Shown here: positions 32,932 through 58,034 of the stretch, piece after piece | Layout of the letters: each line of letters starts with the position of its first letter | Position numbering within the stretch: the first letter of the stretch is position 1 | Assembly (NCBI GenBank): GCA_947167515.1 | Contig: CAMVIM010000014.1 | Span: 1 to 64,000 of the forward strand | DNA from: an uncultured Prevotellaceae bacterium | GTDB lineage: Bacteria; Bacteroidota; Bacteroidia; Bacteroidales; Bacteroidaceae | Length of the DNA stretch: 64,000 bases | Direction: 5' to 3' | Program-made: the position numbers and the translations under genes | The notes under the pieces: model-generated | Told to the model about the DNA's origin: nothing | Database searches by the model: none | Seen by the model: only the letters and a program-made list of their open reading frames with translations

Positions 32932-33003
32932 AGACCTTCATCTCTTCCTTCCGACAGGAAATCCCGAATCGTACAAAAAGACCAACTCAAAATCCCTAAA
33001 ATT

Positions 33004-33066
33004 GGTCTGAGTCACACCCCTACCATCGGTGTGAGTCACACCCCCTCCATAGGTGTGAGTCACACC
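33004..33066. repeat. Three 15-bp palindromic units with 24-bp period
   Basis: Units at 33004-33018, 33028-33042 and 33052-33066 each read GGTGTGAGTCACACC or one base from it, a palindrome around the central G. They lie between two convergent genes. A separate hairpin (33130-33140 with 33154-33164) may terminate one or both transcripts. Confidence 0.85.
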
Positions 33067-33191
33067 GATTTTGTGGCAGTGGAAGCGTACTAATTGACCA
33101 ATTCCCGCATTCATCCATCTAACAACAGCACGCCGCCTGTTACCCCAACGGCCACAGGCGGTGTGTCCTTGTTCATGTATGTCCGAAATGC

Positions 33192-35201
33192 TTACTTCAC
33201 CAGCACCTTCTTCATCGTCCCATCCGAGTAGCGGATAATGTTCACACCCTTCTGAGGAGTCGTGATGCGCTGGCCGTTCAGGTTGTAGCGAGCCACCTCA
33301 ACGGCTGCTGTTCTCTCAGTTCCAGCCTCTGCTTCCACCTCTACTATGCCTGTCGGGTCATCACCCGTGCTGAAGGACTGCTCCTCGCCATAGAAGGTCT
33401 CATTCTCCTCGGTGGTGACAAACGCCACAAAGTGGTAGGTTGAGTTATAGTTCAAGCCCTTCAGGTTGGCGCTCATCATCTGCTGACCACCACCGATGAT
33501 GTCCACCTCTTCCGTCATGGCATCGCCCGGCACGGCAGCCGCCCTGCGCTGTGCGGTCTCGCGAAGGTTGGCCCCAGCAGCCGTCTTCCAGTACTTGAAG
33601 CCCTGCACCTTCACCTTGTCCGTGCCTCTCATGGCATAGCCCTTCACCAATGCGCCGTTGCCCTCCACCGAAATCTTGGCATACGTGTGGACGGTCGGCT
33701 CGAAATAAGAGGTGTTCGATGGGTCTATACCCACCCAGTCGCCATAATGATGTATATCCTCCGATTCCCTATAGTAATAAGGACGAACTTTCCAGAGTTT
33801 TTCTGTGTTCAAATTACGGATGTATCCTTCCATCTGCTCTTCGTAAAGAATACCTTTCCCATACTGCGAACCAAATTCGTTAGTCCAGTCCGTTCGCCTC
33901 CATTCGAATCCGAAGTTGGTTTCATCTTCGTCAATGTTCGTATTTGCGGCAACGATGACATTGCCAGCCGAAATCACTTTAGGCTGTTGCATGTTGAGAA
34001 CAAGTTCCTTTGTTTTCACGTATTTGATGTCACTTGAGTAAGTCTCTGGCTCCCCATCTCCGTATGGCACGTCAATGAGATATTCGCAACCATACGTAAA
34101 GTTTGGTCTAAGACCAAGGACCTTATGAGAACTGCCCGTCAGCGGAATGGTGTCTTCATAGAGCACAAACACGATGCGGGGATTCTGTACCTTGGCATCC
34201 CCTTTTGTGTATGAGCAGTTCATTGTGATGGAAGAGGCAGTCGTGTTCGCATCTAATGTAGGCGCAAGACTTGCTGTCTCAAACGTCGTCTCATCAAGCG
34301 CATAAGAGACTTCTCCCAGCGAAATCTTCATGTTGACCACTTGCGTCCATTCTGGCTTCAGTCCTGTCAACTTGGTCTTCTCGCCCTTGATGGTATTGTC
34401 GTTGCTATGCCATTCAATATATTTTTGGCCTTCTTTATTATAATTTATTGTACCTATATTATAACAGTATGTGTACTCCTTATACTTGTTCTTCACGTTT
34501 ATCACAGCCGTGGTCTGTGTGATGTCCGTGAACTCTGGTGAAGGTTTCTCTATGAGATTCTTCGTGCTGACATTATACACATCATAGCCCGCTTTCCACA
34601 AGGTCAACAGGCTCACATTGCCAGGTTTCGTATAAACTGTTGCCTCGCCAAAGGCGGCGCTGCCTACATTTTGTACATTGTCGGGGACGGTGAAAGAGGG
34701 TATGTTGGTGCAGCCATTGAAAGCAGAACTACCGATGCTTGTCACGCTGTTGGGTATGGTGATGGAAGTCAGTCCGCTGCAGTTCCAGAAAGCACCATCG
34801 CCGATGCTTGTCACGCTGTTGGGGATGGTGACGGATGTCAGTCCGCTGCAGCCATAGAAAGCATAATACTTGATGCTTGTCACGCTGTTGGGGATAACAA
34901 GGTCTTTCACTTCTTCTCCATTTAGAAATAGGTGATGAGCATAATACAATGGGTTGCTTTTAGTGTCTTCAAAATGAATATTGCACCATGAAGCGAGGTC
35001 TGTGATGTTGACGGCTGTCAGTCCGCTGCAGTCATAGAAAGCATAATACTTGATCCTTGTCACGCTGTTGGGGATGGTGACGGATGTCAGGCCTTTGCAG
35101 CCATAGAAAGCATATTCGCCGATGCTTGTCACGCTGTTGGGGATGGTGACGGATGTCAGGCCTTTGCAGCCATAGAAAGCATATTCCCCGATAGTTGTTA
35201 C
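33192..35201 (-). pseudogene. BspA-like leucine-rich-repeat surface protein, 5' end lost
   Basis: The reading frame encodes LRR_5-type repeats (GLTSVTIPNSVTSIG, YAFYGCSGLTSVTIPN, several copies), a 350-residue middle part with fibronectin-like strands, and a C-terminal sorting segment (YNLNGQRITTPQKGVNIIRY) of the kind used by Prevotella for surface secretion. It has no signal peptide and no ATG: repeat homology stops abruptly at about 35201, after which an in-frame stop appears at 35220-35222. This is best explained by insertion of the transposon that starts there. The last repeats that remain are clearly homologous up to the junction. Confidence 0.82.
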
Positions 35202-35465
35202 GGGGAAAATTACAACTCTTTAGAAATCATTTCGTTACCTCAATTTGGATGGTAATTAGGTAACGATTTAGAAACGAGCTGAATTACATATTCTGTCTCG
35301 TTATACACATTTCCAAAGAACGCTTCTTAGTGAGTGCAAAGATAATCATTTATTCTGTTACCACCAAAGAAATGGGCAGAAACTTAACGTTTTTATAGGT
35401 TTTTGTTACCTTTTCCTTGGCTATTTTATGTCTTTTAGTTACCTGTTTCCATTTGGTAACGATTT
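35197..35465. other. Putative transposon end with integrase arm sites
   Basis: GTTAC at 35197-35201 coincides with the break in the surface-protein gene. Within the next 265 bp GTTACC or GGTAAC occurs six times (35234, 35259, 35357, 35405, 35438 and 35455), and GGTAACGATTT occurs twice. Clustered short sites near an element end are typical of tyrosine-recombinase arm sites. Confidence 0.65.
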
Positions 35466-35504
35466 CCTTTTTCTTACGATAGGTTCATTGTCCGTCCATT
35501 ATCC

Positions 35505-35870
35505 CCACGGCAGACTGCTTCGTTATTGGGCTGTCCTTTTATTGCCATAACATACTCTTGGGCAAGCCGAAGAGAATGCTATGGCAATGGAGCGACGAGA
35601 AGATAGCCTGCTAACTTCTCCTGATGTCACTCCTTTCGGACGGTCTCAATGACGGCAGTCTGTCATGGTGATAAGGCGGAAGATGAAAAGCATTCAGGCA
35701 TCCGACATTCTGTATTTTGCTCATCCCACTGGTGTGAAGGGCAAGATACAGAGAGTTAGATGCTGGAGGGGGCAATCCCTGCCAAGAATGCGTTGGAAAG
35801 GCAGACGAGCAGGCTTGCCCACCTTTCCAATGCACACTTGTCTTTAGGGCTTGCTGTCCCTGCTTTCTCA
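35505..35870. repeat. R1 repeat, diverged copy 0
   Basis: This is a shortened, diverged version of the R1 repeats at 36008 and 38261, recognisable from the cggcagactgcttcgtt start, through the tctgtattttgc / gcaagatacaga stem (35709-35720 and 35741-35752), to the ttgctgtccctgcttt end. I see no TAnnTTTG box upstream on the minus strand. Confidence 0.75.
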
Positions 35871-36007
35871 TATCCTTTTGTTTATGCTGTCCATTTGACA
35901 CAGAAGTCCATTTGGCACTAAACACGCTTTGTTTCCATTTTCTTTCCTGTTCTTGTCTATCCGTAGATGTTTTCCATTTCACGTATTTTGCTTTTGTAGA
36001 GGTATTT

Positions 36008-36452
36008 CAAGTTCCTCCAGTTACCTCATGGCCGACGGCTTCGTCGTTGGTGCTGTCCTTTTCTGCCATCTCATACTCTGGGGACGAGCCTCAGAGAATG
36101 ACATGGCAGCGGATTGGCGAGAAGATAGCGAAGCGAATACCTGCCTGAAAGTATTCGGGCAGACTCTCCCGCTTGGCTCACTTCTCTTGTTGCCACTCCT
36201 AAAAGGACACCCCTCAATGACGGCTGTCGGCTATGAGGTTTAGGAGGAACTAACGGAAAAGCATTCAGGCATCCAACATTCCATGTCTTTCTCTTCGCCC
36301 ACGGTCAAAGGGAGAGACATAGAGAGTTGTCTGCTGATGGGCAATCCCCACAAGAGTACGTCGGAAGTGCCGGGCAGATGACAAGCATTTGTCCGTCCCT
36401 TCCGATGCACACTTGCTTCATGGTCTTGCCGTCCCTGCTTTTCTCTGTTCAT
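36008..36452. repeat. R1 repeat, copy A (445 bp)
   Basis: Nearly the whole of this segment recurs as copy B at 38261-38705 with the same length. Visible hairpins include CTCTGGGG/GCCTCAGAG, TGCCTGAA/TTCGGGCA, ATGTCTTTCTCT/AGGGAGAGACAT and GACAA/TTGTC. On the plus strand a frame is shared with copy B, but the differences do not show the bias expected of coding sequence. With R2, a minus-strand transcript is likely. Confidence 0.85.
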
Positions 36453-36611
36453 CGTTAGGGGTGTTCCTTTTCAGTATGCCGTTCTTGTATTCACTCTTTG
36501 ACATTCCTCTCGTTTTCTCAGGCATTGCCAGAAGGTGGGCAAGCCACTTGATTGCAATCCGACCCGTGAACCTTCGCAGGTATTTCAGTACGCCCGTTAG
36601 ATACGTTCCCG

Positions 36612-36789
36612 TGGCAAAGGTAAAACCGCAAATTGGAATGGCAAGTTCAGACCACAAGGGTTTTCGGGAAAATCTCCACACCGCAAGGGGTAGTATTTTG
36701 CCGAAAAAACTTGCCGTATCCAATCTGCAACCTTTGATGTAGCCACAGGAACGAAACAAACGGCGATAGAAATACGCAAAAAAAAAACG
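36612..36789. repeat. R2 repeat, copy A
   Basis: The segment shares ordered blocks with 38911-39097: ggcaaaggta, aaaatctccacac, ggtagtatttt, cgaaaaacttg and gacgcaaaaaaaa-like ends. On the minus strand it has TACCTTTG at 36622-36615, a -7 box that would drive transcription leftward through R1 copy A. It also ends about 100 bp before the phosphoribosyltransferase gene. Confidence 0.75.
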
Positions 36790-36886
36790 AAGGATTCACG
36801 GAGTACGGATTTGATTCAGTAGGAACTCACTTCACAGCTCCTGAATCCGCAAAAAACAAAAGTTGAACATCAAAAGCAATCTGAAT

Positions 36887-37420
36887 ATGTTTAAGTACGC
36901 CCTTCTCGACTATGTGCCACAGCGTTACCTCCGTCGTGCATCATTCGACACACTGGAGAACGACCGCTTCATCCTTGACTTCAAGTCAGGCAGACGCTAT
37001 GCTACCGACAAGGCTTCACGGCTCATCGGCAAGGCTCTCTCATTGATGGACTTGAAGGACACTGTGATAGTCTGCATCCCTGCAAGTTGCCAACAGACCT
37101 ATACCCGCAGGTTCCGCAGTTTCTCTGCCAAGTTGTCCGCCCTATGTGGAGCAATAGACGGGTTCGAGCATATCCATGTCATCGGAAAGAGAGAGAAGGT
37201 ACACATTTGCGGAGAATACGCAGCCGAGGACAACGTGTGGATAGACGAGGATTTCTTCAAGGGCAAGCGCATCCTGCTCATTGACGACATCTGCACATCG
37301 GGCAGGACATCAGACGCATTCAAGGAGCGGATGGAATCGGCAGGGGCACACGTCAGAATGGCTATGTTCCTCGCCAAGACAAAGAACTATCGTAGAACAA
37401 ACAATTATAAATACAACTGA
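36887..37420 (+). CDS. Phosphoribosyltransferase-like protein
   Basis: From the ATG at 36887 the 177-residue product contains the 13-residue PRPP-binding motif in the form ILLIDDICTSGRTS (residues 129-142), as in type I phosphoribosyltransferases and ComF-like proteins. The N-terminal hood region is not matched to a known base. On such transposons it is commonly paired with radC, 2 bp downstream. The reaction is probably salvage of a base or a repair-linked function; the substrate is unknown. Confidence 0.87.
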   Translation: MFKYALLDYVPQRYLRRASFDTLENDRFILDFKSGRRYATDKASRLIGKALSLMDLKDTVIVCIPASCQQTYTRRFRSFSAKLSALCGAIDGFEHIHVIGKREKVHICGEYAAEDNVWIDEDFFKGKRILLIDDICTSGRTSDAFKERMESAGAHVRMAMFLAKTKNYRRTNNYKYN

Positions 37421-37422
37421 TT

Positions 37423-38118
37423 ATGAACACAGCATTAAGAATGAGCATTAAGCAGTGGGCACCCGAAGACCGACCCACCGAGAGATTACAGCGTTTAGGC
37501 GCAGAGTCACTGACCGATGCAGAACTACTTGCCATCCTCATTGGCAGCGGTACACAGCAGTACAGCGCAGTGGATATTGGCAACCAAGTGTTGGGCAAGT
37601 TCAACCACAACCTCAACACATTGGGCAAGGCTCGTTTCGATGAAATACTCGACATCGAGGGAGTTGGCACACAGACTGCCTGCAAGATACTCGCAGCCGT
37701 TGAGTTGGGCAAGCGCAGGCAGATAGCGACACCCGAACTGCATCCCGAAATGAGCACCGCCACCCGTATCTACAACTATATGCTGCCCAAGATGCAAGAC
37801 CTCGCAACGGAAGAGTTTCACATCCTGCTGATAAATCAGAACTTCCGCCTTATCAAGTCCGAGCGCATCAGCCAAGGAGGTATAACCGAGGTGAGCGCAG
37901 ATATACGGATTATGATACGTGAGGCAGTTCTTAACAATGCAACCATCATGGCAGTCTGCCATAACCACCCCAGCGGCAGCACACGTCCCAGCAGAATTGA
38001 CGATACACTGACGCAGAGCGTGAAGAAGGCTTGTGAGGTCATGCGCATTCATTTCCTCGACCATGTTATCGTGACGGATGGAGCATACTATAGCTATCAC
38101 GAGCAGGGAAAGATATAA
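37423..38118 (+). CDS. radC: RadC family JAB/JAMM-domain protein
   Basis: The 231-residue protein has the RadC layout: a helix-hairpin-helix-like N-terminus (ESLTDAELLAILIGSGTQQY), the LDIEGVGTQTACKILAA region and the JAMM metal site H180-N-H182-P-S-G-S with D193. This fold is metalloprotease-like; its role in repair is not proven. It is common on Bacteroides conjugative transposons as cargo. The gene follows the phosphoribosyltransferase by 2 bp and is closed by the double-hairpin repeat R3. Confidence 0.93.
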   Translation: MNTALRMSIKQWAPEDRPTERLQRLGAESLTDAELLAILIGSGTQQYSAVDIGNQVLGKFNHNLNTLGKARFDEILDIEGVGTQTACKILAAVELGKRRQIATPELHPEMSTATRIYNYMLPKMQDLATEEFHILLINQNFRLIKSERISQGGITEVSADIRIMIREAVLNNATIMAVCHNHPSGSTRPSRIDDTLTQSVKKACEVMRIHFLDHVIVTDGAYYSYHEQGKI

Positions 38119-38134
38119 CCAACAAGTGAGCAGG

Positions 38135-38232
38135 GAAGTCGGACGGACGAAAAGTGCCGCCCGACTTCGTTTCTTTCATGAGCAGATGGCGAGAAAGAAA
38201 CGAAGCAAAAGAAACCCTGTTCCATTCTTTAC
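38135..38232 (+). repeat. R3 double hairpin, copy 1, after radC
   Basis: Two adjoining stems are visible: GAAGTCGG (38135-38142) with CCGACTTC (38161-38168), then CGTTTCTTTC (38168-38177) with GAAAGAAACG (38193-38202). The same arrangement follows the DUF3873 gene at 42255. It probably terminates or stabilises the transcript of the upstream cassette. Confidence 0.85.
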
Positions 38233-38260
38233 AGTTGTTGCTAATACCATAATTGTTTTC

Positions 38261-38705
38261 AAGTTCCTCCAGTTACCTCACGGCAGACGGCTTCGTCGTT
38301 GGTGCAGTCCTTTTCTGCCATCTCATACTCTGGGGACGAGCCTCAGAGAATGACACGACAGCGGATTGGCGAGAAGAAAGTCATACGAATACCTGCCTGA
38401 AAGTCTTCGGGCAGACTCTTCCGTATGGCTCACTTCTCCAGATGCCACTCCTTTTCGGACTGCAATCAATGACGGCTGTCAGTCGTGAGGTTTGGGAAGA
38501 ACAGATAGAAAAGCGTCCAGGCATACAACATTCTGTATTTCTCGCATCGTAGCAGGTACGACGGGAAAAATACAGAGAGTTGTCTGCTGATGGGCAATCC
38601 CCACAAGAGTACGTCAGAAGTGCCAGACAGATGATGAACATTTGTCCGTCCCTCCCGATGCACACTTGCTTAACGGGCTTGCCGTCCCTGCTTTTCTCTG
38701 TTCAT
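38261..38705. repeat. R1 repeat, copy B (445 bp)
   Basis: Same length and order of blocks as copy A at 36008, with about 15 percent differences. The long stem is TCTGTATTT (38532-38540) with AAATACAGA (ending 38576), where copy A has a different sequence that pairs equally well. It is preceded on the right by R2 copy B, which again carries a leftward TACCTTTG box. Confidence 0.85.
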
Positions 38706-38910
38706 TGGCACGTTGTTCCCTTTTACAAAGTGATTCATTCAGTACGTTTATACCTTCTTATAATAATAGTCTGTTTCAAGTACCTTTTTCTTCAGTGACC
38801 TTTGACATCGGCTTCCCACTAAGTCGGAGAGCCGAGTTCCAGCCTCATATATGTCTCACTACCGCGAATTGCCACTTTTTCCTGTCCCGTCCCCGATCGT
38901 TCCGTTTGGG

Positions 38911-39097
38911 CGGCAAAGGTACGGACACCTGATTTCGGCAATCCAAGTTCGGGGCGCAGGCGTTTCGCAAAAAATCTCCACACTCCGCTAAAGGAAGGTA
39001 GTATTTTTCACGAAAAACTTGTATAGCCGACCTCGTGTCAGTGATGGAGCCGCCGAAACGAAACGACAACGGCGACAGGACAGACGCAAAAAAAAAT
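38911..39097. repeat. R2 repeat, copy B
   Basis: Ordered blocks shared with 36612-36789, including the ggcaaaggta word that reads TACCTTTG on the minus strand (38921-38914). The intervening bases are diverged. It lies just before the second cargo cassette. Confidence 0.72.
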
Positions 39098-39197
39098 GGC
39101 AAGTTCAACGGTTCATACATATAGGGCAAAGGCAGGAAACTCACTTCCTCCGACTTATGGAAACCGCAATATCATACAAACCAAACCCAAGCGCAAT

Positions 39198-39395
39198 ATG
39201 AGACAAATGGCTATTTCAACAACAATCCTAATGGCTCTGATGCCCCTCCGCATCGTGAACTGGCTGATGAGCCTTGTATGCAACCTGATGGCTGTAGTCA
39301 TCGAGTCCGTCATCACCATCATCATCACTTGGGTGGCGATAGCAATCACCATCCTGCTACTTATCGGCACATTCCTTTGGATACTGTCACTCTGA
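39198..39395 (+). CDS. Small membrane protein
   Basis: The 65-residue product from the ATG at 39198 is almost wholly hydrophobic (IVNWLMSLVCNLMAVVIESV and ITIIITWVAIAITILL), predicting two transmembrane helices. It lies 32 bp upstream of the PcfK-like gene. Its function is unknown. The frame extends further upstream, but the codons there lie in repeat R2. Confidence 0.6.
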   Translation: MRQMAISTTILMALMPLRIVNWLMSLVCNLMAVVIESVITIIITWVAIAITILLLIGTFLWILSL

Positions 39396-39427
39396 AAAGA
39401 AAACAAACAATTAAACACCATACGATT

Positions 39428-39850
39428 ATGAAAGGAACAGAAAGTTTCAAGCAGACCATCCACTCCTATCTGGAGCAGAGAGCAAGCGAGGACACGCTCT
39501 TCGCAGAGAAGTACCACGCAGTGAACCGCAGCATCGACGACATCGTGACCTACATCCTCAACCAAGTGATGAAGAGCGAGTGTCACGGCTTCGACGATGA
39601 TGAAATCTACTCACTGGCTATCCACGCAGCCGAGGAAAAGGATTTGGAGGTGGGCAAGCCGATGGAGTGCGACGTCAGAGTGAACCACATCGTGGAACTC
39701 ACCGAGGAAGAAAAGCAGGAGGCAAGGCGCAACGCAATCCGCAGACTGGAGAACGAGACCTACAACCGCATTTCCCAACGCAGCAAGCCCAAGGCAAGGA
39801 CGGCACAGACCTCCACCATTCAGCAGCCATCATTATTCGACAACTTCTAA
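39428..39850 (+). CDS. PcfK-like protein
   Basis: The 140-residue protein begins MKGTESFKQTIHSYLEQRAS and contains DDIVTYILNQVMKSECHGFD-like and DDDEIYSLAIHAAEEKDLEVG segments, the pattern of the PcfK family, named for enterococcal conjugation genes and common on Bacteroides transposons next to PcfJ. It ends with a QPSLFDNF tail. The exact role in transfer is not known. It lies 11 bp before the PcfJ-like gene. Confidence 0.87.
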   Translation: MKGTESFKQTIHSYLEQRASEDTLFAEKYHAVNRSIDDIVTYILNQVMKSECHGFDDDEIYSLAIHAAEEKDLEVGKPMECDVRVNHIVELTEEEKQEARRNAIRRLENETYNRISQRSKPKARTAQTSTIQQPSLFDNF

Positions 39851-39861
39851 CACCGAGCATT

Positions 39862-41148
39862 ATGAAACCAAGAACGCAATACCAAAAGATGGTGTGCCAG
39901 TCCGACAAGGGCACGGCACCCATCGCCAAGAGAGTAATCAAGTGGGCAGCCGAAGAACTCACCGACCACTTTGCCTACCATCATCCCAACTCCCTCCGCC
40001 ATACCTGTATGGACTGCGGACACCAGTGGACTATCTCAGACGCTGAAAAGAAAAACAAGACCCTCGTATGCCCCCACTGCGAACGCAGGTTGGACGTGAA
40101 AGAGACCCGTGACCGCACCCTCCGCCAGTCTGCCTACTTCACCATGCTCACCACGAGGAAAGGCTTTCAGGTACTCCGTGTAGCCCTGCTGAACACCGAA
40201 CACCGCAAGGGGGAACAAGCCACAAGCACCTGCCGAGAGATATGCCGCTACTACATCAACGGGCAAGGCAAGTGTGAGGTGATAGGACTGAAGCGCACGA
40301 TGGGACCATACCTTGACTGCTTCTCCTACTATGCAGGAATGGAACTCCGCAACGACAACGACACCTTCAGCCACCTTGCCACGTTCCCCCTCTACCCCAA
40401 GATGGACGTCATCCCCGAACTGGAGCGCAACGGCTTCACGGGTGACCTCTACGGACTGGCACCATTGACGATGTTCAAGTCGATACTCCGTGACAACCGC
40501 TACGAGACCCTTCTCAAATCGGGACGCATCGACCACTTCCGCCACTTCATGACGCACTCCACCGACCTCGAAGTCTGTTGGAACTCATACAAGATTGCCA
40601 AGCGCAACCACTACCATATCGGCAATATCAGCCTATGGTGCGACACCATCCGTATGCTCCGCAAGGTTGGCAAGGACATTCGCAATGCCCACTATGTTTG
40701 CCCCACCGACCTCCAAGCCGTACACGACAAGTTGGTGAAGAAGATTGAGGAAAAGGCAGAGCGTGAGCGCAGAGCCGAGGAAATGGAGAGAGCAGCCAAG
40801 AGCGAAGCCAAGTTCAAGGCAATGAAAGGCAAGTTCTTCGGTCTGTTGTTCACCGATGGACTCATCAATGTCCGTGTGTTAGAGAGTGTGGAGGAACACC
40901 GCCAAGAGGGAAGCCACATGCACCATTGTGTATTCAGCGCATCCTACTATCTCAACGAGGAAAGCCTAATCTTCTCTGCTACCATCAATGGGGAGCGAGT
41001 GGAAACAGTGGAATTTAGCCTTGACGAGTTCCGAGTAGTACAGAGCCGAGGTGTCTGCAACAAGAACACCGAGTATCACGACCGCATTGTGAGCCTTGTA
41101 AACAGCAACGCAGATGCCATAAGGCAGAGAATGAGAAAGGCAGCATAA
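39862..41148 (+). CDS. PcfJ-domain protein with zinc ribbon
   Basis: The 428-residue product has an N-terminal zinc ribbon (CMDCGHQW then CPHCERRL, about residues 50-85) and a long C-terminal part with the PcfJ-type motif EEHRQEGSHMHHCVFSASYY. The gene is one of the largest in the cargo cassette. The start at 39862 is 11 bp after the PcfK stop. I infer a DNA- or RNA-binding accessory function in conjugation, unproven. Confidence 0.87.
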   Translation: MKPRTQYQKMVCQSDKGTAPIAKRVIKWAAEELTDHFAYHHPNSLRHTCMDCGHQWTISDAEKKNKTLVCPHCERRLDVKETRDRTLRQSAYFTMLTTRKGFQVLRVALLNTEHRKGEQATSTCREICRYYINGQGKCEVIGLKRTMGPYLDCFSYYAGMELRNDNDTFSHLATFPLYPKMDVIPELERNGFTGDLYGLAPLTMFKSILRDNRYETLLKSGRIDHFRHFMTHSTDLEVCWNSYKIAKRNHYHIGNISLWCDTIRMLRKVGKDIRNAHYVCPTDLQAVHDKLVKKIEEKAERERRAEEMERAAKSEAKFKAMKGKFFGLLFTDGLINVRVLESVEEHRQEGSHMHHCVFSASYYLNEESLIFSATINGERVETVEFSLDEFRVVQSRGVCNKNTEYHDRIVSLVNSNADAIRQRMRKAA

Positions 41149-42254: not shown

Positions 42255-42350
42255 GAAGTCGGACGGACGAAAATTCCGCCCGACTTCGTTTCTTTCATGA
42301 GCAGGGGGCGAGAAAGAAACGAAGCAAAAGAAACCTTGTTCCGTTCTTGC
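42255..42350 (+). repeat. R3 double hairpin, copy 2, after DUF3873
   Basis: Same two stems as at 38135: GAAGTCGG (42255-42262) with CCGACTTC (42280-42287) and CGTTTCTTTC (42287-42296) with GAAAGAAACG (42312-42321). The loops differ in sequence between copies, the stems do not. Confidence 0.85.
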
Positions 42351-42417: not shown

Positions 42418-42966
42418 TTATCTGATATACAGCAGCGAGAACTCCACATATCTCCGTCGCTCTATGGACTTCACTTTCCTGCCCTTGTATCGGCAGAAGC
42501 GCATGTAGTCATGGAAGATATTGCGGTTACCTGCATCCAGTTTCCTCAGCAGCGTACTTCGTGGGCGTTTGCTTGTGCCGAGTATGGCGTATGGCCCCAC
42601 ATTGTAGGCAAGGACAGCCAAGAGCATCTGATCTTTGCCGTAGCCATCGAATAGTCGGTACATCTTCATCAAGTCCTGGCGCAGCAGCCTGTCACCCTGT
42701 GCCTTCGTCATTGTCCTTGCACTGTACCGTTCCACAGGCTGCAACTGGTGACCCCATCCGACATAGGGATAGTTGCGGACGGTGTGCCAGCCCTCGAAGT
42801 GCTTGATGATTTCCACCGCCAGATTGAAACGCTGCCATTCCGTCATCCGTTCCTGATTGCTTGGCGGTCTCATGTCCTGCGCCATCGTCACCGACGGGCA
42901 GAGCATCAGCAGGACGGCTATAACCAGCCCTGCCAATGCACGTTGATGGTTACTGCCTACTCTCAA
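42418..42966 (-). CDS. Lysozyme-like glycoside hydrolase of the transfer system
   Basis: The product has a signal-type hydrophobic stretch followed by a lysozyme-like fold: EIIKHFEGWHTVRNYPYVGW (catalytic Glu in FEGW), then GHQLQPVERYS and LLAVLAYNVGPYAILG. Its role is to open the peptidoglycan for the transfer apparatus. The start is uncertain: a TTG at 42966 fits the signal peptide best, while a longer frame to 43029 would overlap traQ by 80 bp. It is the terminal gene of the tra operon. Confidence 0.85.
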   Translation of the reverse strand: MRVGSNHQRALAGLVIAVLLMLCPSVTMAQDMRPPSNQERMTEWQRFNLAVEIIKHFEGWHTVRNYPYVGWGHQLQPVERYSARTMTKAQGDRLLRQDLMKMYRLFDGYGKDQMLLAVLAYNVGPYAILGTSKRPRSTLLRKLDAGNRNIFHDYMRFCRYKGRKVKSIERRRYVEFSLLYIR

Positions 42967-43420
42967 TGCCTTGCCCTCCTTTCTCTGCGGTTTCCTTTTC
43001 CTCGTCCTCGTTGTTGAACTTGAACTCAAGTTGCTCGCTCTGCCCGTGATTGTCCTCTATGACCACGATGAAGCTGTGCGAGTCAGACGATGCCGAGGTG
43101 TAGTACAGACGGAACTCGCTCGTCAGCAGCGGATAGCGGTCGTTGGCTTTCAGGGCTTTCTTGTTGTATTTGAGCGTACCCTTGCCGTCGTAGAGGAACC
43201 AGCGGATGGTGTACTTAGTGTCGTCCGTTCTGCCCTCCGCAAGCAGTGAACAGCGGATTTCCACCGTCTCGCCCTGCGTCACCCTCAGAGGGACTGGCAT
43301 AGTCTCGACATGAAACGGATAAGCTGTCTGAATATCCAGATCGCTATCGCAAGCAGCGATGCAAAACACGGCGGTTGCCATGCAGCCCAGCCCCACAATC
43401 TTCTTGATTACCTTCTTCAT
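42950..43420 (-). CDS. traQ: Conjugative transfer protein TraQ (DUF3872)
   Basis: The 156-residue product (from the ATG at 43420) is DUF3872. It has a lipoprotein signal with cysteine in the lipobox (CIAAC), then VPLRVTQGETVEIRC and SFIVVIEDNHGQSEQLEF strands of an Ig-like fold. The position between traP and the lysozyme gene fits the CTnDOT order. An alternative ATG at 43438 would add six residues. The 3' end of traP overlaps it in another frame. Confidence 0.88.
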   Translation of the reverse strand: MKKVIKKIVGLGCMATAVFCIAACDSDLDIQTAYPFHVETMPVPLRVTQGETVEIRCSLLAEGRTDDTKYTIRWFLYDGKGTLKYNKKALKANDRYPLLTSEFRLYYTSASSDSHSFIVVIEDNHGQSEQLEFKFNNEDEEKETAEKGGQGIESRQ

Positions 43421-44339
43421 TGTTGATGTTACTTTCATTGTTCGTTGTTTTTTGGTTGTTGTTTACTTTTTGTTGATTCTTCACAAGGAACTCGTTGAGA
43501 TCCTTGTTGCCTGAGTAGTCGGCAGTGTGGTCTATGACCTTTTCACCCAGACTGTCCTTCAGCGTCTGCACTGCCTTCTTCCCTGCATCGTCATTGTCAA
43601 GGTAGGCGTGAACGTGCTCGTACTGCTTCAGCAAGTCCGTCGATTTCCGCAGGTAGATGATGCTGTTAAGTACCAGATTGTCCTTTTGTGCTGCATTATG
43701 ATTGATGGTAACCGCTGAAAGGAAGTCAAAGAATCCCTCAAACACGTTACACTCCCTGCTTGGTTGTTCACCGCATTGTATAAACGTCGTTCCCTTCGGT
43801 GCAATGCAGCCTTTGAAGAACTTGTTGCGCACCTCATAGCCGCCCTTGTCGTTGGGAAAGCCGATGGCAAAGTAACGCTTACTGCGCAAGTCGTAGTGTA
43901 CCTCCTTGCAGTACCGAGCAGCCACCTCAAAGGGCATCGCCCTTTCCGCAAGGTACTGACGCAGGGCATAGTGTCCGAGTGGCAGCACCTCTACGTTCGC
44001 AAACTGCGGCTCCGTGTCTTCCGCCATCTTCTGGTACTCCATTCCCTTTATCTCCAGCATCGGCAGTTTCATGGTCTCTGCAATGTACTGAGCCTGACGG
44101 ATGAAGTCGTTAGACGGAATCAGTTTCCCAGCCAGTGTAAAGATGTCGCCACCCTCACCCATGCCGAAGTCAAACCACTTTTCCTTTCGGGTGTCGAGTT
44201 TGAACGACGGGCTTTTGTCGTTGCGGTAAGGCGAATGATACCATAGTACCGTACCACGCTTTTTGACGGGATGGAAACCGAGCCGACTCAAAAAGTCGGC
44301 TATCGGTGTATCCTTGATTTTCTCGATGTCCATTGCCAT
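43344..44339 (-). CDS. traP: Conjugative transfer protein TraP (CHC2/Toprim primase)
   Basis: The 331-residue protein has the CHC2-like domain (RGTVLWYHSPYRNDKSPSFK, KEKWFDFGMGEGGDIFTLAG) and Toprim-like segments (CNVFEGFFDFLSA, VHAYLDNDDAGKKA). It is the transposon-encoded primase and is a paralogue of the two genes at 1-1829. The last 25-30 residues overlap traQ out of frame and may be non-homologous. It lies 4 bp after traO on the minus strand. Confidence 0.9.
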   Translation of the reverse strand: MAMDIEKIKDTPIADFLSRLGFHPVKKRGTVLWYHSPYRNDKSPSFKLDTRKEKWFDFGMGEGGDIFTLAGKLIPSNDFIRQAQYIAETMKLPMLEIKGMEYQKMAEDTEPQFANVEVLPLGHYALRQYLAERAMPFEVAARYCKEVHYDLRSKRYFAIGFPNDKGGYEVRNKFFKGCIAPKGTTFIQCGEQPSRECNVFEGFFDFLSAVTINHNAAQKDNLVLNSIIYLRKSTDLLKQYEHVHAYLDNDDAGKKAVQTLKDSLGEKVIDHTADYSGNKDLNEFLVKNQQKVNNNQKTTNNESNINNEEGNQEDCGAGLHGNRRVLHRCLR

Positions 44340-44343
44340 AGCG

Positions 44344-44916
44344 TCAGTTGATGATGAACTTCAGCCCGATGCCGTACTGCGTATGGTTCAGCCCGGAAGT
44401 GTTGCCCCACAGGAAACGCTCACGCACATTCCCCATCACCACCACCTTGTCGGACAGATACCACTCCACGTTTAGCGTGGCAGCACAGCCATACACGAAG
44501 CCGCCCTTTTCCTTCAGCCGTGAGCCGTCATCCAATAGTTTCTCATTCCAGTTCACCGTCTCATAACCTGCCAGTGCCGATGCACCGACATAGACAAAGA
44601 ACGACTTCGAGGCATCAGACAGCACCTGCTTGTAAAAGCCGCCCTCTGCCGTGAACTGCGCCATGGGGATAGTCTGCTTTTCATCCTCACCATACTCATA
44701 CTTGTGGTTGCGCTGCAGGTACTCCGCACCGAACACCCACTTGTTGCCACCCTTGGCGTAGGTCTCAGCCGTCACACCGCCATAGAACGAATCGCCCTTG
44801 CCGTCCACCATGCCACCACCGATGGCGATGCCCTGCATCTTCGGGAGCACTCTCTGAGCCGTGGCCTGCCCCATAGTCAGAGCAAGCACGGCAATCGTCA
44901 GCATAATCTTCTTCAT
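44344..44916 (-). CDS. traO: Conjugative transfer protein TraO
   Basis: The 190-residue protein has a signal peptide (about 20 residues ending ATAQ) and beta-rich repeats with glycine-aromatic pattern (GIAIGGGMVDGKGDSFYGGV, WVFGAEYLQRNH), as in TraO of CTnDOT-like systems, which is an outer-membrane-associated component. The position between traN and traP supports this. Confidence 0.92.
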   Translation of the reverse strand: MKKIMLTIAVLALTMGQATAQRVLPKMQGIAIGGGMVDGKGDSFYGGVTAETYAKGGNKWVFGAEYLQRNHKYEYGEDEKQTIPMAQFTAEGGFYKQVLSDASKSFFVYVGASALAGYETVNWNEKLLDDGSRLKEKGGFVYGCAATLNVEWYLSDKVVVMGNVRERFLWGNTSGLNHTQYGIGLKFIIN

Positions 44917-44934
44917 AGTTTTCAGTCTCTCGTT

Positions 44935-45870
44935 TTACTGGTTAGACACTTTCAGTTCCGAAATCACTCTCGCCCTTACAAGGTCGGTGTTCTCAATGGT
45001 GAAGGACTGGTGACGCCCACCGTTCTTCTCCGCCAGTTCCACCACTAAGCACTTGTCGTCGGGGATGGTGAACTTGTCCATCGTCCATACCGTGCGCTCC
45101 TTGCTGTTACCTGCCACGTTCAGCACGAAGTTCTGTGTGCGCAGGGGCTGAACGACCTGCTCCTGAATGGCGGTACGCTTTGCCACCTTCTTATCAACAA
45201 TCTTCCATGTGATGAAGTCCACGTCGAAGGGCACGTTGCTGGAGTTCCTGATCTCCGTGTGGAAGTACAGCAGACCGTTGTGTGTGTAGATGCCTTTCAA
45301 GAGGAACTGGATACCAAAGCTCTTACTGCCGATGTGCTTCACACGACGCTTGTTCTCCTTCCAGATGCTCTTCATCACCAGTCGCACCAGCACGGGACTC
45401 TCCGAGCCGAGTTCCTTCAGGTAGATGTTCATGGAGTTGTTGGGACGGTTCACCGCCTCCCCGTCGTGGATGAAGTCCGTCATCTCCACATTGAGGATTC
45501 GAGGCTCACGGGCATACTTCACGTTGAAACTGTAGTAGGCACCATCCTCAGTGATGACGCTCATGTTCGTTTCGCCCTTGAAACCACGCTTGGCGGCTTT
45601 CACACGGATGACGTTCTCCGCACCATCAGCCTTTCCGGCAATGATGTTGGCTGAGCCTAAATCCACGTAGGCGATGGCGGCAGGGAAAATGACGTGACAG
45701 GTCTTGTCAAACGTCACCTCCAGCCCGTGAGGGGGAATCATGCGGTCGTAGGTGATCTTCTTGGTATAGCCTTCAAAGAGGTCACCCGTGTTGTCACTTG
45801 TCTGTGCCATAGCCACAGACACCATGCCCATCATCAGGGCGAAAACAGAAAAAACTTTCTTCATTGTCAT
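44935..45870 (-). CDS. traN: Conjugative transfer protein TraN (DUF4138)
   Basis: The product (311 residues from 45870, or 309 from 45864) has a signal peptide with a GMVSVAMAQ end, then the DUF4138 strands: LEVTFDKTCHVIFPAAIAYV, DLGSANIIAGKADGAENVIR and IEIR-type segments. The protein is a VirB9-like outer component of the transfer channel. Upstream codons to 45945 are probably not used. Confidence 0.92.
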   Translation of the reverse strand: MTMKKVFSVFALMMGMVSVAMAQTSDNTGDLFEGYTKKITYDRMIPPHGLEVTFDKTCHVIFPAAIAYVDLGSANIIAGKADGAENVIRVKAAKRGFKGETNMSVITEDGAYYSFNVKYAREPRILNVEMTDFIHDGEAVNRPNNSMNIYLKELGSESPVLVRLVMKSIWKENKRRVKHIGSKSFGIQFLLKGIYTHNGLLYFHTEIRNSSNVPFDVDFITWKIVDKKVAKRTAIQEQVVQPLRTQNFVLNVAGNSKERTVWTMDKFTIPDDKCLVVELAEKNGGRHQSFTIENTDLVRARVISELKVSNQ

Positions 45871-45916
45871 ACAGATTTTTGTTTGTGAATAAATGGATTG
45901 GTTGTTACTTGGTTGA

Positions 45917-47224
45917 CTATTGTTTGTTTGCATAGAGTATGACACGGTAGTTGGACTTCAGGTGTACCTTGACGGTTCGCATCTTCTTGGCAATATACTG
46001 GCTCGTTCCCTGTATCAGCCCCTTGCCTAAGTCCGATGCCAGTTGCGCACCAGCATCCGATGATATATTGATGCTGCTGCCCATCGACGTGCCCATGTTG
46101 GCGGCTACCTCCTTGGCGGCATTCAGTTCCATCGAGCCGGGAATGAAGATGCCCTGCTGTCCGTCGGTGTCATACACGCTCAGCTTCACGTTGTAGATGC
46201 TTCCTGCATACTCTATCGAGGTGACGCTGATGCCCAGACGTTCGCCAGTGATCCTTGCTAAGCCAGTCACTACGGAGTTGGCAGGGATGATGATGTCACC
46301 CACACGCATCTGCTCCAACAGCCTGAGCCGTACCTTCTGTCCGTCAGTGACGGTCTGATTGCCATAGATACAGGCGGAAATGGTGTTCTTGTCGAGTGCC
46401 GATACGATGCCGACGGCAGTATTGAAAGCCATGTTTCGCTCCACGGAATAGTCTGCCATAAATTCCTCGTTGCTCTGCTCCTGCTGGAGAGCCGACACCA
46501 CCGACTTGTGTACGTTCCTGACGGGAGCCACCTGCACCTTGTCGCCCGATGTTGACGTAGCATCCTGCCCCTGCTGTTGAGTACCGCCCGGCATGTACTT
46601 TGCAGCCATCTGGTACGACTTTTCCATCAGTTCCAGTTGTTCGTCAACGGTGCTTTTCGGGTTCTGCAACTCATTGGCCCTTTCCTCCAGTTCTGCGACA
46701 CGCTGTCGCAGTTCCTCGTTCTCACGGCTCTGGTCGTTCTGATAGAAGCCGCCCAATGTTGTGTTGAGGTTGTTGTAGGCAGCAGCCGACGAGGTGATTT
46801 TCTCCTTGGCCTTGCGGCTGGCATCGTCCTCATACGCCTGTGCCGTACTGTCTGAAATCAGGCTGAAGTCGCCAGTCTGTGACTTGGCGGAGGAACTGTT
46901 GTAGAGTTCTCCCAGACTGCCTATGGCCTGTTCCCTTGCCTGTTGCTTGTCCTCCATCAGACTGGCCTCGTATGCCTTGGTCTTGTCGCCGATGATGTCA
47001 CCGCTGTTGGCATCGGGCATCTCCGTATTGAAGCCCTTGGCACCGAGCAGTCCCCTCCTGCCGTCGCCCGACGGGGCGAATATCAGCCACATCACGATGA
47101 TGAAGACCAGTCCCATCAGTGCATACACAATCATTTTCTTGCGCTTGATGCGCTCTGCCTCCGTGAGCGGTTCCTTGCCCTCAACGGGAGGCGTCAGATT
47201 CTTCTTTTCTTCTTCCTTGTTCAT
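45917..47224 (-). CDS. traM: Conjugative transfer protein TraM
   Basis: The 435-residue protein has an N-terminal cytoplasmic tail, a transmembrane helix (MIVYALMGLVFIIVMWLIFA, residues about 31-50), a long coiled coil (RENEELRQRVAELEERANEL) and a VirB10-like C-terminal domain with AVGIVSALDKNTISACIYG and GDIIIPANSVVTGLARITG. It spans from the inner membrane towards the outer part of the channel. Confidence 0.92.
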   Translation of the reverse strand: MNKEEEKKNLTPPVEGKEPLTEAERIKRKKMIVYALMGLVFIIVMWLIFAPSGDGRRGLLGAKGFNTEMPDANSGDIIGDKTKAYEASLMEDKQQAREQAIGSLGELYNSSSAKSQTGDFSLISDSTAQAYEDDASRKAKEKITSSAAAYNNLNTTLGGFYQNDQSRENEELRQRVAELEERANELQNPKSTVDEQLELMEKSYQMAAKYMPGGTQQQGQDATSTSGDKVQVAPVRNVHKSVVSALQQEQSNEEFMADYSVERNMAFNTAVGIVSALDKNTISACIYGNQTVTDGQKVRLRLLEQMRVGDIIIPANSVVTGLARITGERLGISVTSIEYAGSIYNVKLSVYDTDGQQGIFIPGSMELNAAKEVAANMGTSMGSSINISSDAGAQLASDLGKGLIQGTSQYIAKKMRTVKVHLKSNYRVILYANKQ

Positions 47225-47249
47225 TCTTCTTTGATTGTTGTTAATGGTT

Positions 47250-47399
47250 TCACATGCTTGTTGCCACGTCCCATATAGTCCAAAGCGTCAACAGTCCCAG
47301 CACTGCCAGCATCGCCCACGCCACCACACGGCTCTCCTTGCTTGACAGTCCCTTACACCACCTGTAGGCGCTGGCCCTAATAGTTCTTGCTGCTTTCAT
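47250..47399 (-). CDS. traL: Small transfer protein TraL-like (DUF3989)
   Basis: I translated this by hand: a 49-residue product that begins MKAARTIRASAYRWCKGLSS and has one transmembrane helix (VVAWAMLAVLGLLTLWTIW). The start overlaps the end of traK by 4 bp and the stop lies 25 bp before traM, the exact position of traL in related transposons. Its short length explains why it is easily missed. Confidence 0.85.
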   Translation of the reverse strand: MKAARTIRASAYRWCKGLSSKESRVVAWAMLAVLGLLTLWTIWDVATSM

Positions 47400-48019
47400 C
47401 GCTTCACGGTTTGAAGGTCTTTGTTCTCAACGATTGTAAAGCCCTCGATGGTGAATCCGTTGGGATTGTCATCCGAGCGGCTGGAGTTGAGCAGTCGGCA
47501 GGTCGTCACAAGCGACCTCTCCGTCACGTTACTGGAGCGGATGATCATCTGCCGTGCGTAGGTCGTTGCCGAATACGGGTAATTGTCGAAGTCGCAAACC
47601 ACGCTGTCAACCCTCACCGTCTGGTTGATGTTGCCTGCTATGATGCGGTTGTAGTAGCCTTTCTCGGCAAAGTCCTGGTAATAGTGGTAGGCACTCTTGT
47701 CCGCCAGCAGCAGGGCACGCTTCACGTTGTGTTCAATGGCACTCTTCTCTGGTGAGAGCGTGAAAAACAGCTCATGGAAGCGGCGCACATGCTCACGCGC
47801 CTCTGCCGGACGGTTCTGCGAGAGGTCTTGCGACAGGGCAAGCATCAGCGACTTGCCTTTGTCGAGGACGTAGATTTTCTCCCTCTGCTTCTCCGCGAAG
47901 GCGTAGGAGCTGTAAACGCTCCATACGACCACCACGGCACACAGCACGAGAAAGACGATGGCAAAGAGACGTATCTGTCTGAAAGAGGTCTCGATGTTCT
48001 TCAATGACTTAAATTCCAT
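47396..48019 (-). CDS. traK: Conjugative transfer protein TraK
   Basis: The 207-residue protein has an N-terminal transmembrane helix (LFAIVFLVLCAVVVVWSVYS) followed by a VirB8-like periplasmic domain (SLMLALSQDLSQNRPAEARE, DFDNYPYSATTYARQMIIRS). It is an inner-membrane scaffold of the channel. The stop overlaps the traL start by 4 bp. Confidence 0.92.
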   Translation of the reverse strand: MEFKSLKNIETSFRQIRLFAIVFLVLCAVVVVWSVYSSYAFAEKQREKIYVLDKGKSLMLALSQDLSQNRPAEAREHVRRFHELFFTLSPEKSAIEHNVKRALLLADKSAYHYYQDFAEKGYYNRIIAGNINQTVRVDSVVCDFDNYPYSATTYARQMIIRSSNVTERSLVTTCRLLNSSRSDDNPNGFTIEGFTIVENKDLQTVKR

Positions 48020-48049
48020 TTCTTTCTTGTTTCATTTACGGTTTTACAT

Positions 48050-49072
48050 TCAGAAGATTTTCCTAAGGCGACCGGCAACGTTTCCGGCTGTCGCACCCAC
48101 GGCCCCCCCGGCCAATGCACCGCTTCTGTTGGTGACGTTGTTCACGTTGCGGTTATAGTTGCCCATGCCTCCGGCCTGAATCACCCAGCTTGCAACGGTC
48201 GGCACGGTGAAGTAGCCGATGATGCCGATGATCATGAAGATGATATAGACACCGTCACTGGAGTCCAGCGAGAAGTTCGGGTCTGCTTGCATACGCTCAA
48301 TGTCGTTCTGTAGCATCAGCACCTGAATCTTCGCCAGAATACAGCTGAACAGGTCACAGACGGGTAGCCACAGGTACACTTGGATATAGCGGCAGAGCCA
48401 TTGGGTGAGCGTACTCTGAAAGCCGTCCCACACCGATATGGCGAATGCCAGCGGCCCCAATATCGCAAGCACGATGAGGAAGAACGTGCGCAGGGTGTCG
48501 ATGACCAGTGACGCAGAGTCGAACATCAGTTCAAGCACCTCACGGAACCAGTCACGGATGCCTTTTTTCAGGTTGTACATCCCACGCTCCACATACATGC
48601 CCGTCATCGTCATGAGGTCGCCCGGCGACCATCCGAGTTCGTCCAGTTGCTTGTCAAACTCTTCATTGCTGACGAGGTAGGCGGTTTCGGGATTCCGCTT
48701 CATGGCCTCATATTCCAGCTTGTCCTTCTGTTCACGGTACTGCTGCATGTTGAGCGTTTCGCCCTCCAGCATCGTCGCCACGCCTTGCACTATCGGGGTC
48801 ATCACCGCATTGAGCGTACCCAATACCACCGTCGGGAACATCAGGATGCACAGCCCGATGGCAAAGGGACGGAGCAACGGGAACACGTCGATGGCCTCCG
48901 CACGGGCGAGGGACTGCCAGACACGGTAGGCGATATAGAAGAGTGCCCCCAATCCGGCTATCGCCCTCGCCACGCCCGCCATATTCGAGCAGAGCGGCAT
49001 CATCTCCCCGTAGAGACTGTGCAGCAGCGTGTGCAGGTTCTCGAAGTCGATGGCTAATAACAGGTTCATCAT
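48050..49072 (-). CDS. traJ: Conjugative transfer protein TraJ
   Basis: The 340-residue protein is a multi-pass inner-membrane protein, VirB6-like (AIAGLGALFYIAYRVWQSLA, IGLCILMFPTVVLGTLNAVM, DTLRTFFLIVLAILGPLAFA, IIFMIIGIIGYFTVPTVASW). The size and hydrophobicity fit TraJ of CTnDOT. It is followed by traK and preceded by traI. Confidence 0.92.
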   Translation of the reverse strand: MMNLLLAIDFENLHTLLHSLYGEMMPLCSNMAGVARAIAGLGALFYIAYRVWQSLARAEAIDVFPLLRPFAIGLCILMFPTVVLGTLNAVMTPIVQGVATMLEGETLNMQQYREQKDKLEYEAMKRNPETAYLVSNEEFDKQLDELGWSPGDLMTMTGMYVERGMYNLKKGIRDWFREVLELMFDSASLVIDTLRTFFLIVLAILGPLAFAISVWDGFQSTLTQWLCRYIQVYLWLPVCDLFSCILAKIQVLMLQNDIERMQADPNFSLDSSDGVYIIFMIIGIIGYFTVPTVASWVIQAGGMGNYNRNVNNVTNRSGALAGGAVGATAGNVAGRLRKIF

Positions 49073-49096
49073 AGTCTGTCTGTTCCTTTTGAGGGT

Positions 49097-49729
49097 TTAC
49101 CAGTAACGCTGACTTGCATCGCCATAGAGTCCGAACACACGGTCGAGGTCGTTCTTCTTCTTGGCACGGAGGTACGACACGGAGATGTTCTTGTTCGTGT
49201 AGTATGACACGAGGTTGCGGTAGCGCTTCATGTCGTTGTAGCACTTGTCAACGATTTCCATGCGCTCCTTGTCGGTCATCGACATGGTGGTGACGTTCAC
49301 CACGTTCTTCAGTTCCGTGAGCACGTCCGTCGATTCCTCCAGCAGTTTCGTGTAGCCGAAGGCAATGGCGGAAAGTTCCTCCACGGTGAAGTTCTCATCC
49401 TGCATCATCTTCTGGAAGTTGGTCACATAGATGTCGGTGATGTCGCCCACCATGACGATGGTCTGCTGCACCTTACGGGCATCCTTGATGAGATTGTTCA
49501 CCGACTTCAGGGCATCGTAGTATTTCTTGCCCTGCTCGTAAATCTTCACGGTCTCTTGAAAATTCCGAATCATGTTCTGCGCCGTTGTCGAGGTCTGCAC
49601 GATCTCACGGGTGGAGTTCACGATGCCCTGCGCCAGATTGGTGGGGTCAACGACCGTCCACTGCGCACTTGCCCTGCCGACGCACAGTGTCATGCAGAGG
49701 CTGATAATCACTAATGCTTTCTTTCTCAT
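49097..49729 (-). CDS. traI: Conjugative transfer protein TraI (DUF4141)
   Basis: The 210-residue protein has a signal peptide (ending ASAQ) and a helical domain (MIRNFQETVKIYEQGKKYYD, TVEELSAIAFGYTKLLEEST), the DUF4141 pattern. It is probably VirB5-like, a periplasmic or surface component. The gene order traG-traI-traJ is the CTnDOT order. Confidence 0.9.
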   Translation of the reverse strand: MRKKALVIISLCMTLCVGRASAQWTVVDPTNLAQGIVNSTREIVQTSTTAQNMIRNFQETVKIYEQGKKYYDALKSVNNLIKDARKVQQTIVMVGDITDIYVTNFQKMMQDENFTVEELSAIAFGYTKLLEESTDVLTELKNVVNVTTMSMTDKERMEIVDKCYNDMKRYRNLVSYYTNKNISVSYLRAKKKNDLDRVFGLYGDASQRYW

Positions 49730-49771
49730 TCTTACTTTGTTTTAATGGGTGAATAAATAATGTTGATTGAC

Positions 49772-52276: not shown

Positions 52277-52604
52277 TCACTCTTTGGTTTAACTTGTTTT
52301 TAATGGTCTGGTATGGCTTTTTGCGGTTGATGAGGAAACGGGGCCTGCTTCTCTTTGCCATCAGCTTCATCAGTCCGTACTCCCCGAAGCGTCGGTTGAG
52401 GGCGAAGGTCTGCCACACAAGCAGCGAGGCAGACACTACACCCGTACCGATGCACACCCACTGGTTTACTCCAGCGAGGAAGAGGATGACGAACAGGACG
52501 AAGATGGCGAGCAGCCCACCTGCGAAGATAAACAGGTACTGCGCTTTGAGTCCCTTGAACTCAACCGACTGGCCTATACCCTTGTTGATGTTGTACTCTG
52601 CCAT
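52245..52604 (-). CDS. traF: Conjugative transfer protein TraF (DUF4133)
   Basis: The 119-residue protein is DUF4133: YNINKGIGQSVEFKGLKAQY, two transmembrane helices (YLFIFAGGLLAIFVLFVILF) and NRRFGEYGLMKLMAKRSRPR, similar to VirB3. The gene follows traE by 42 bp. Confidence 0.92.
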   Translation of the reverse strand: MAEYNINKGIGQSVEFKGLKAQYLFIFAGGLLAIFVLFVILFLAGVNQWVCIGTGVVSASLLVWQTFALNRRFGEYGLMKLMAKRSRPRFLINRKKPYQTIKNKLNQRVNEKYPESNDR

Positions 52605-52646
52605 CTTCCCTTTCCTCCTATACCTTATTATTATATGCGTATAGGG

Positions 52647-52955: not shown

Positions 52956-53035
52956 AAAAATAAGTTTTGTTGTTAATGCCCCGGACGTTGCCGCCCGAGG
53001 CGGGTTAATGTTTAATGGTTGATGATTCTTTGGTA

Positions 53036-53323: not shown

Positions 53324-53358
53324 AATGAATTTAATTTTTAATTGTTGTTTAATAATTG

Positions 53359-54063: not shown

Positions 54064-54088
54064 ATGTCTCTTTGGTTGTGATAAAAGT

Positions 54089-54577: not shown

Positions 54578-54582
54578 TGTCT

Positions 54583-57984: not shown

Positions 57985-58034
57985 TTATCTATTATTCAAA
58001 TGCACTTTAATCACAATTCAAATTCCATTTTACT

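Follow-up and report, generated by a model that had tools for sequence, protein, structure and literature searches.

CTnDOT-type elements transfer genes among gut and rumen Bacteroidales, and we know of no account of how the genes of such an element are expressed upon arrival. In the F plasmid, Frpo1 and Frpo2, which share 92% identity and lie about 5 kb from each other, stand ahead of two leading operons whose early expression depends on them (PMC9849209). The second strand, in turn, can be started by host RNA polymerase, by host primase or by an element's own primase (PMC4595007). In a large survey of leading regions, the search targets were Frpo/ssi sequences already known and boxes of the sigma-70 type, and the text contains no word starting with "bacteroid" (PMC11541004); with the search limited in this way, Bacteroidetes-type promoters would have escaped it. 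Our search of the literature on single-strand promoters with Bacteroides or PcfJ/PcfK showed no such report among the papers listed. Here we describe a candidate from an uncultured Prevotellaceae bacterium: the window (the first 64,000 bases of the 84,692-base contig CAMVIM010000014.1) carries a large part of a conjugative element of the CTnDOT type, in which a folded repeat of about 400 nt, R1, recurs before two gene pairs, one encoding phosphoribosyltransferase-like (PRTase) and RadC-like proteins and the other PcfK- and PcfJ-like proteins; a hairpin, S2, is placed between R1 and the genes. R1 is most likely a folded-DNA module of this conjugative element, a new variant of the single-strand promoter/origin systems.

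The locus resembles the F plasmid Frpo pair (PMC9849209, PMC11541004) in that a long folded non-coding DNA is repeated before two operons, with R1-A and R1-B 85-86% identical and 2.25 kb apart; in that the template strand is the transferred strand (which for R1 and S2 is presumed); and in that a hairpin, here S2, has promoter boxes. The likeness is one of plan; in this element, however, the boxes belong to the Bacteroidetes -7 type and are found in S2 instead of R1. The ICEBs1 sso1 (PMC4595007) is likewise a set of several stem-loops, carried by an integrative conjugative element in its non-coding DNA, with a structure that outlasts its sequence; the function of sso1 in second-strand synthesis is known, whereas R1 is likened to it by structure, having several stem-loops in a single strand as a single-strand origin does. 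The STAXI motif (PMC2864571) is also a tandem structured motif beside DNA-handling genes, for which the authors discuss single-stranded DNA, but it consists of repeated pseudoknots with UUCG loops and is thought likelier to be RNA, whereas R1 consists of two domains with several hairpins each and shows no RNA wobble signature. Finally, RteR of CTnDOT (PMC7366714) is a non-coding feature of the same element class; it is described as a small RNA of 90 nt that acts on the tra operon, in contrast to R1 with more than 370 nt. The R1 and S2 features of the window are as follows.

35490..35866, plus strand, R1 copy 0 (short type), from direct repeats D4-D7 and D9; folding z-score -12.0
36005..36471, plus strand, R1 copy A, from direct repeats D2 and D3; folding z-score -12.1; located upstream of PRTase-RadC, with the S2 core 182 bp farther on
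36595..36765, minus strand, S2 hairpin unit A, from alignment; core ATCTCC..GGTAGTATTT at 36672-36698; DNA fold of -39.5 kcal/mol, z-score -7.9 against simple shuffles
36615..36622, minus strand, putative -7 box TACCTTTG in the S2(A) arm, from box search and fold
38257..38724, plus strand, R1 copy B, from direct repeats D2 and D3; folding z-score -8.1; located upstream of PcfK-PcfJ, with the S2 core 239 bp farther on
38890..39075, minus strand, S2 hairpin unit B; core at 38974-39006; DNA fold of -41.6 kcal/mol, z-score -5.1 against simple shuffles
38914..38921, minus strand, putative -7 box TACCTTTG in the S2(B) arm, from box search and fold

An initial annotation of this DNA had noted three copies of the repeat between 35505 and 38705 and had read them as a candidate structured RNA. 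The three copies are there, all on the plus strand: tandem copies 0 and A precede PRTase-RadC and copy B precedes PcfK-PcfJ. Our limits are slightly longer than the 445 bp given for A and B, and the annotated span clips both ends. Identity between copies A and B is 85% in a stretch of 293 nt and 86% in one of 162 nt, and pieces of copy 0 match both at 68-80%. The fold has two domains. The first, an imperfect palindrome at the 5' end, is a long closing stem enclosing hairpins, one of which carries about 44 nt more in copies A and B than in copy 0, and the second is a GAAAAGC/GCTTTTC closure around the two hairpins that had been described previously. The arms quoted for the long stem were located in each copy (35698-35729/35732-35763 in 0, 36269-36300/36303-36334 in A, and 38521-38551/38557-38587 in B), and those of the second stem were found in copies 0 and A, for which it had been reported (35783-35810/35813-35840 and 36351-36380/36386-36415). 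In copy B, on which the initial annotation was silent, this second stem is weaker and absent from our inverted-repeat list. Against dinucleotide shuffles, folding gave z-scores of -12.1 (A), -12.0 (0) and -8.1 (B), with none of 100 shuffles folding as well as the native sequence for any of the three; the minus strand of R1(A), folded as DNA, gave -9.7. These scores, and the pairing kept across copies, support the view of R1 as a structured element.

We aligned 23 copies of R1, four of them partial, from the window and ten contigs of Prevotella/Bacteroidaceae-type genomes; most of the copies precede PRTase-RadC or PcfK-PcfJ. The four partial copies (L014_1p, L026_2p, L022_yp, L025_p) were left out of the covariation simulation and the frame count, and included in the wobble counts over 23 copies described below; the folds with wobble forbidden used the other 19, two of which (L023_3 and L024_3) are interrupted by a gene, with their far fragments (L023:1174-1260 and L024:2790-2873) unaligned. 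In a pairwise test, the structure was taken from one copy only and its pairs were then scored in another. Watson-Crick pairs were kept above the expectation for independent substitution in all 11 copy comparisons, which are not mutually independent (e.g., 98 of 132 pairs against 67.0 expected for the comparison of copy 0 to A), and double compensatory changes were in excess at p<0.05 in 10 of the 11 (e.g., 13 vs 4.7), the weakest comparison being B to L028 (5 vs 2.3, p=0.08). The compensatory change claimed for the stems is confirmed, with pairing that outlasts the divergence between copies. Covariation above the phylogenetic background did not emerge for any single pair: a phylogeny-aware, R-scape-like simulation with 19 sequences, a small set with low power, gave no significant column pair, the best structure pair having E=0.69. 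Since the main quoted hairpin exists as two alleles that are swapped blockwise among copies, the compensatory changes there do not amount to many independent events.

G-U pairs are tolerated in RNA helices on the transcribed strand and A-C pairs are not, so G.T should exceed A.C if R1 were RNA. Helices were defined strand-blind, from Watson-Crick pairs only, and departures from pairing were then counted. The conserved helices of R1 hold 32 G.T and 39 A.C mismatch types in the 23 copies (ratio 0.82, bootstrap 0.53-1.22), compared with 28:14 and 43:11 obtained by identical code for RNase P in 17 same-genus sequences and 13 sequences from the order (Fisher p=0.03 and p=0.0001 for the difference from R1, respectively). 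With wobble forbidden during folding, R1 gave 34:34 and RNase P 10:3 and 11:2; omitting the exchanged hairpin left R1 at 28:31. Neither strand of R1 bears the RNA wobble mark, and we count compensated pairing without an excess of G.T over A.C as evidence for folded DNA. The count is a cheap means to question RNA readings of folded intergenic repeats. As the initial annotation had it, R1 belongs to no named RNA family that we could match: Rfam gave no match at the gathering score in the window or in three related loci, and at E<=10 just 8 matches to microRNA precursors, far under their cut-offs. A protein had been judged unlikely, and this is borne out by stops, one or more per frame, in all 19 copies examined.

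TAnnTTTG serves as the -7 box for the primary sigma factor of Bacteroides, for which the published -33 motif is TTTG (PMC7366714). On the minus strand this box occurs in the 5' arm of S2 in 15 of 22 clusters, 51-62 nt before the core (74 nt in one), where simple shuffles (used for all S2 tests) give 1.1 as the expectation; its middle bases vary (TACC, TATC, TAAC, TATT, TAAT). The plus strand has it in none of the 22 clusters in the same region, and in two against 1.3 expected downstream. The core itself, ATCTCC-hairpin-GGTAGTATTT, sits inside a longer stem, and the minus strand gave z-scores of -5.1 to -7.9 in four folds. In duplex DNA the box is oriented away from the genes. Once the minus strand is folded, the box lies in the 3' arm and is directed out of the hairpin toward the genes (four folds), preceded in each of the four by a TTG at a distance of 19-22 nt; it is paired over seven of its eight bases in unit A and two of eight in unit B. 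Wobble counts in S2 are even (12:15). The S2 core follows R1 at 182-239 bp downstream on the same strand in 12 of the 23 copies, and seven short-type copies have the next R1 89-113 bp downstream; the remaining four are L029_2 and L028, whose contigs end 42 and 160 bp on, L024_3 and L025. We count this linkage and spacing, together with the oriented and conserved -7 box, in favor of a single-strand control unit.

S2 also occurs without R1. Among 295 genomes from the order, at least 34 match it at E<=0.001, some over less than 30 nt, and so do four plasmid records; in the two of these that were inspected, S2 precedes PcfK. The 480 nt before S2 in four other elements folded with z-scores of -4.6, -8.3, -2.0 and -3.7, compared with -1.1 to 0.2 for five control pieces of the tra region (20 shuffles each); as three of these four are unusually folded before S2, we count them toward the DNA-structure reading. 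The DNA before S2 in two plasmid loci gave no blastn match to R1. Other S2 cores, in further genomes of the order, stand before a DUF6943 or DnaJ-like gene followed by one to three DUF6266 copies (L112, L113, L114, L115, L116, L117, L118). S2 is probably a portable element not confined to conjugative transposons.

We tentatively favor the reading in which R1 and S2 form a DNA-level structure active while the transferred strand is single-stranded, and not an RNA gene. R1 would be the upstream half of a repeated R1 + S2 unit before two operons of the element. The minus strand, template of these genes, is taken as the transferred strand; it would enter the recipient single-stranded and fold, and the duplex-like S2 hairpin would present a -33/-7 promoter to the recipient RNA polymerase. 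Transcription would then leave the base of the hairpin onto the single-stranded template, so that PRTase-RadC and PcfK-PcfJ could be produced ahead of the existence of a second strand. R1, beside S2, may keep single-strand-binding protein off the promoter and/or provide a site from which the second strand is started, perhaps together with the primase-like protein that the element encodes; once the strand had turned duplex the fold would be lost and the unit would be off. S2 is the likelier promoter of the two. A candidate defined by sequence renders the question of early expression in these elements testable. A wider version is possible and held with more reserve: mobile elements of Bacteroidales would have their own family of single-strand promoters, S2 hairpins whose -33/-7 promoter faces the genes only in the folded transferred strand, with the Prevotella-type elements pairing S2 with a 400-nt R1 module that opens the strand or primes its copying. 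PRTase, RadC, PcfK and PcfJ would then be early establishment genes.

Several observations weigh against this reading. A strict -7 box is absent from seven of the 22 S2 clusters, and the element before it is TTG, not the consensus TTTG. R1 itself was rejected as a promoter, as no copy has a -7 box. At one locus, L025, R1 stands without an S2 core within 7 kb, and for L024_3 none occurs within 630 bp. We did not find the origin of transfer (oriT) or the direction of transfer, nor did the literature on CTnDOT and CTn341 give that direction; and the DUF6266, DUF6943 and J-domain genes behind other S2 cores may lie outside conjugative elements. In the wobble test, the difference from same-genus RNase P reaches no further than p=0.03. 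In addition, Frpo of F-like plasmids, used as a control, gave 11:6 on the transferred strand (p=0.33 vs even), from 13 sequences of mean identity 0.90 with too few changes to decide; since known Frpo is also not different from even, the test is stronger as an argument against RNA than as proof of single-stranded DNA.

The reading of the initial annotation, R1 as a structured RNA (a plus-strand 5' leader or small RNA, or a minus-strand RNA running leftward from the S2 -7 boxes), draws on the very strong conserved fold and on the RNAalifold energy part, which is somewhat better for the plus strand (-136.8 vs -114.8). Some pairs predicted for the plus strand only are rich in G.T (174 cells vs 8 A.C); the minus-only pairs mirror this (60 vs 8), and RNAalifold tends to select G.T-rich pairs. 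In duplex DNA, transcription from the TACCTTTG boxes on the minus strand (36615 and 38914) would run through A and 0, and through B. However, G.T equals A.C whichever strand is read, and there is no Rfam match. The strict TAnnTTTG box is missing from both strands of all 23 R1 copies and from the plus strand at 35100-37000 and 38100-39300, a result that concerns this promoter type only. An RNA is unsupported, and we consider it unlikely.

Still less probable, in our judgment, is a duplex-DNA element, with inverted repeats bound by protein dimers or forming cruciforms under supercoiling, that would act in regulation, in partitioning or in replication of the excised circle. The even wobble counts would suit a structure used on both strands, and the 5' domain is imperfectly palindromic, but the fast change of sequence with pairing kept is unlike a simple binding site, and the S2 box facing away from the genes would be left unexplained. 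R1 could also be a functionless hairpin repeat that spreads passively, either like a miniature inverted-repeat transposable element (MITE) or copied by recombination, with its paired changes arising through template switching at hairpins. The block-wise swapping of the two alleles of the main hairpin agrees with this, as do the inserted gene that breaks R1(B) in L023 and L024 and the L025 copy that sits apart from the usual genes. But R1 keeps the same places in related elements, at a fixed spacing to S2 or the next R1, and no copy was found in its own genome beyond this region; we hold passive spread to be the least probable of these explanations.

At least three of 251 genomes sampled from the family matched: the own genome, one with a genuine copy (G152), and one with a 28-nt match (G168) that we rejected as chance, as L006 holds no more R1 similarity. 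Both this tally and that of the 295 order genomes scored two candidates per genome and are hence lower bounds. In the genus sample the own genome was the sole match (1 of 45), and all four R1 matches in it are the three window copies, so it has no MITE-like dispersal. A pattern scan of a genome collection returned 20 stretches, 10 with R1; the other 10 have no R1 among the matches listed, and four of these, re-examined, again had none. The R1-bearing stretches are titled Prevotella, Prevotellaceae, Bacteroidaceae or Bacteroidales, and ruminants (roe deer, water buffalo, yak, and red deer) are named in four or more of the records. Phage records searched with R1-B plus S2 gave no match; plasmid records searched with copies 0 and A plus S2 gave matches confined to the S2 part; and scans of viral contigs returned zero and four stretches, the four having no R1 among the matches listed.

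The order R1-R1-PRTase-RadC-R1-PcfK-PcfJ fits the visible genes in eight of the ten other loci. Just the tandem R1 pair is visible in L015 and L029, and the third copy is interrupted in L023 and L024; L028 stops at the contig edge, and L025 lacks PRTase, RadC, PcfK and PcfJ in 7 kb. The interruption is a gene of 472 or 445 amino acids (L023:1300-2718 and L024:1396-2733), inserted within R1(B) in the opposite orientation to R1; the L024 protein gave no match in a Pfam search. R1(B) may be a cargo site. A BspA-like gene is divergent to the first R1 copy in the window and in six other loci, and is absent at L022. In the window this leucine-rich-repeat gene spans 33192-35480, with a minus-strand TAnnTTTG box at 35337; by eye, the DNA upstream of it recurs in L028, from another genus (L028:590-1480).

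Within the element, the minus strand at about 42418-55392 encodes TraG, TraJ, TraM, TraO, TraQ and further tra genes, and the plus strand at 56228-60047 encodes MobC, a relaxase and a coupling protein. PRTase, RadC, PcfK and PcfJ form a plus-strand block past the end of the tra operon, share one orientation, and are separated from the mob genes by that operon:

36863..37420, plus strand, PRTase gene (Pfam PF00156)
37423..38118, plus strand, RadC-like gene (Pfam PF04002 and PF20582)
39278..39850, plus strand, PcfK-like gene, open frame (Pfam PF14058; domain at residues 52-188)
39667..41148, plus strand, PcfJ-like gene, open frame (Pfam PF14284)

The primase-like gene of the element, at 43344-44339, has a Toprim_2 domain, with a CHC2 finger narrowly below the cut-off. 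The own genome has a second PRTase gene (G000:C64:572-1096, L009) sharing 35% identity with that of the window; R1 similarity at this locus is no longer than 14-16 nt. A 79-nt repeat with a CTTCGTTTCTTTC/GAAAGAAACGAAG hairpin is found at 38151-38229 and 42270-42348 (92% identical); its first copy lies after RadC and directly before R1(B). Judged by eye, the repeat is terminator-like. Also by eye, a GTGTGAGTCACACC-like palindrome was read in three close copies at 33001-33070, the first with one change, near where the element presumably has its left edge.

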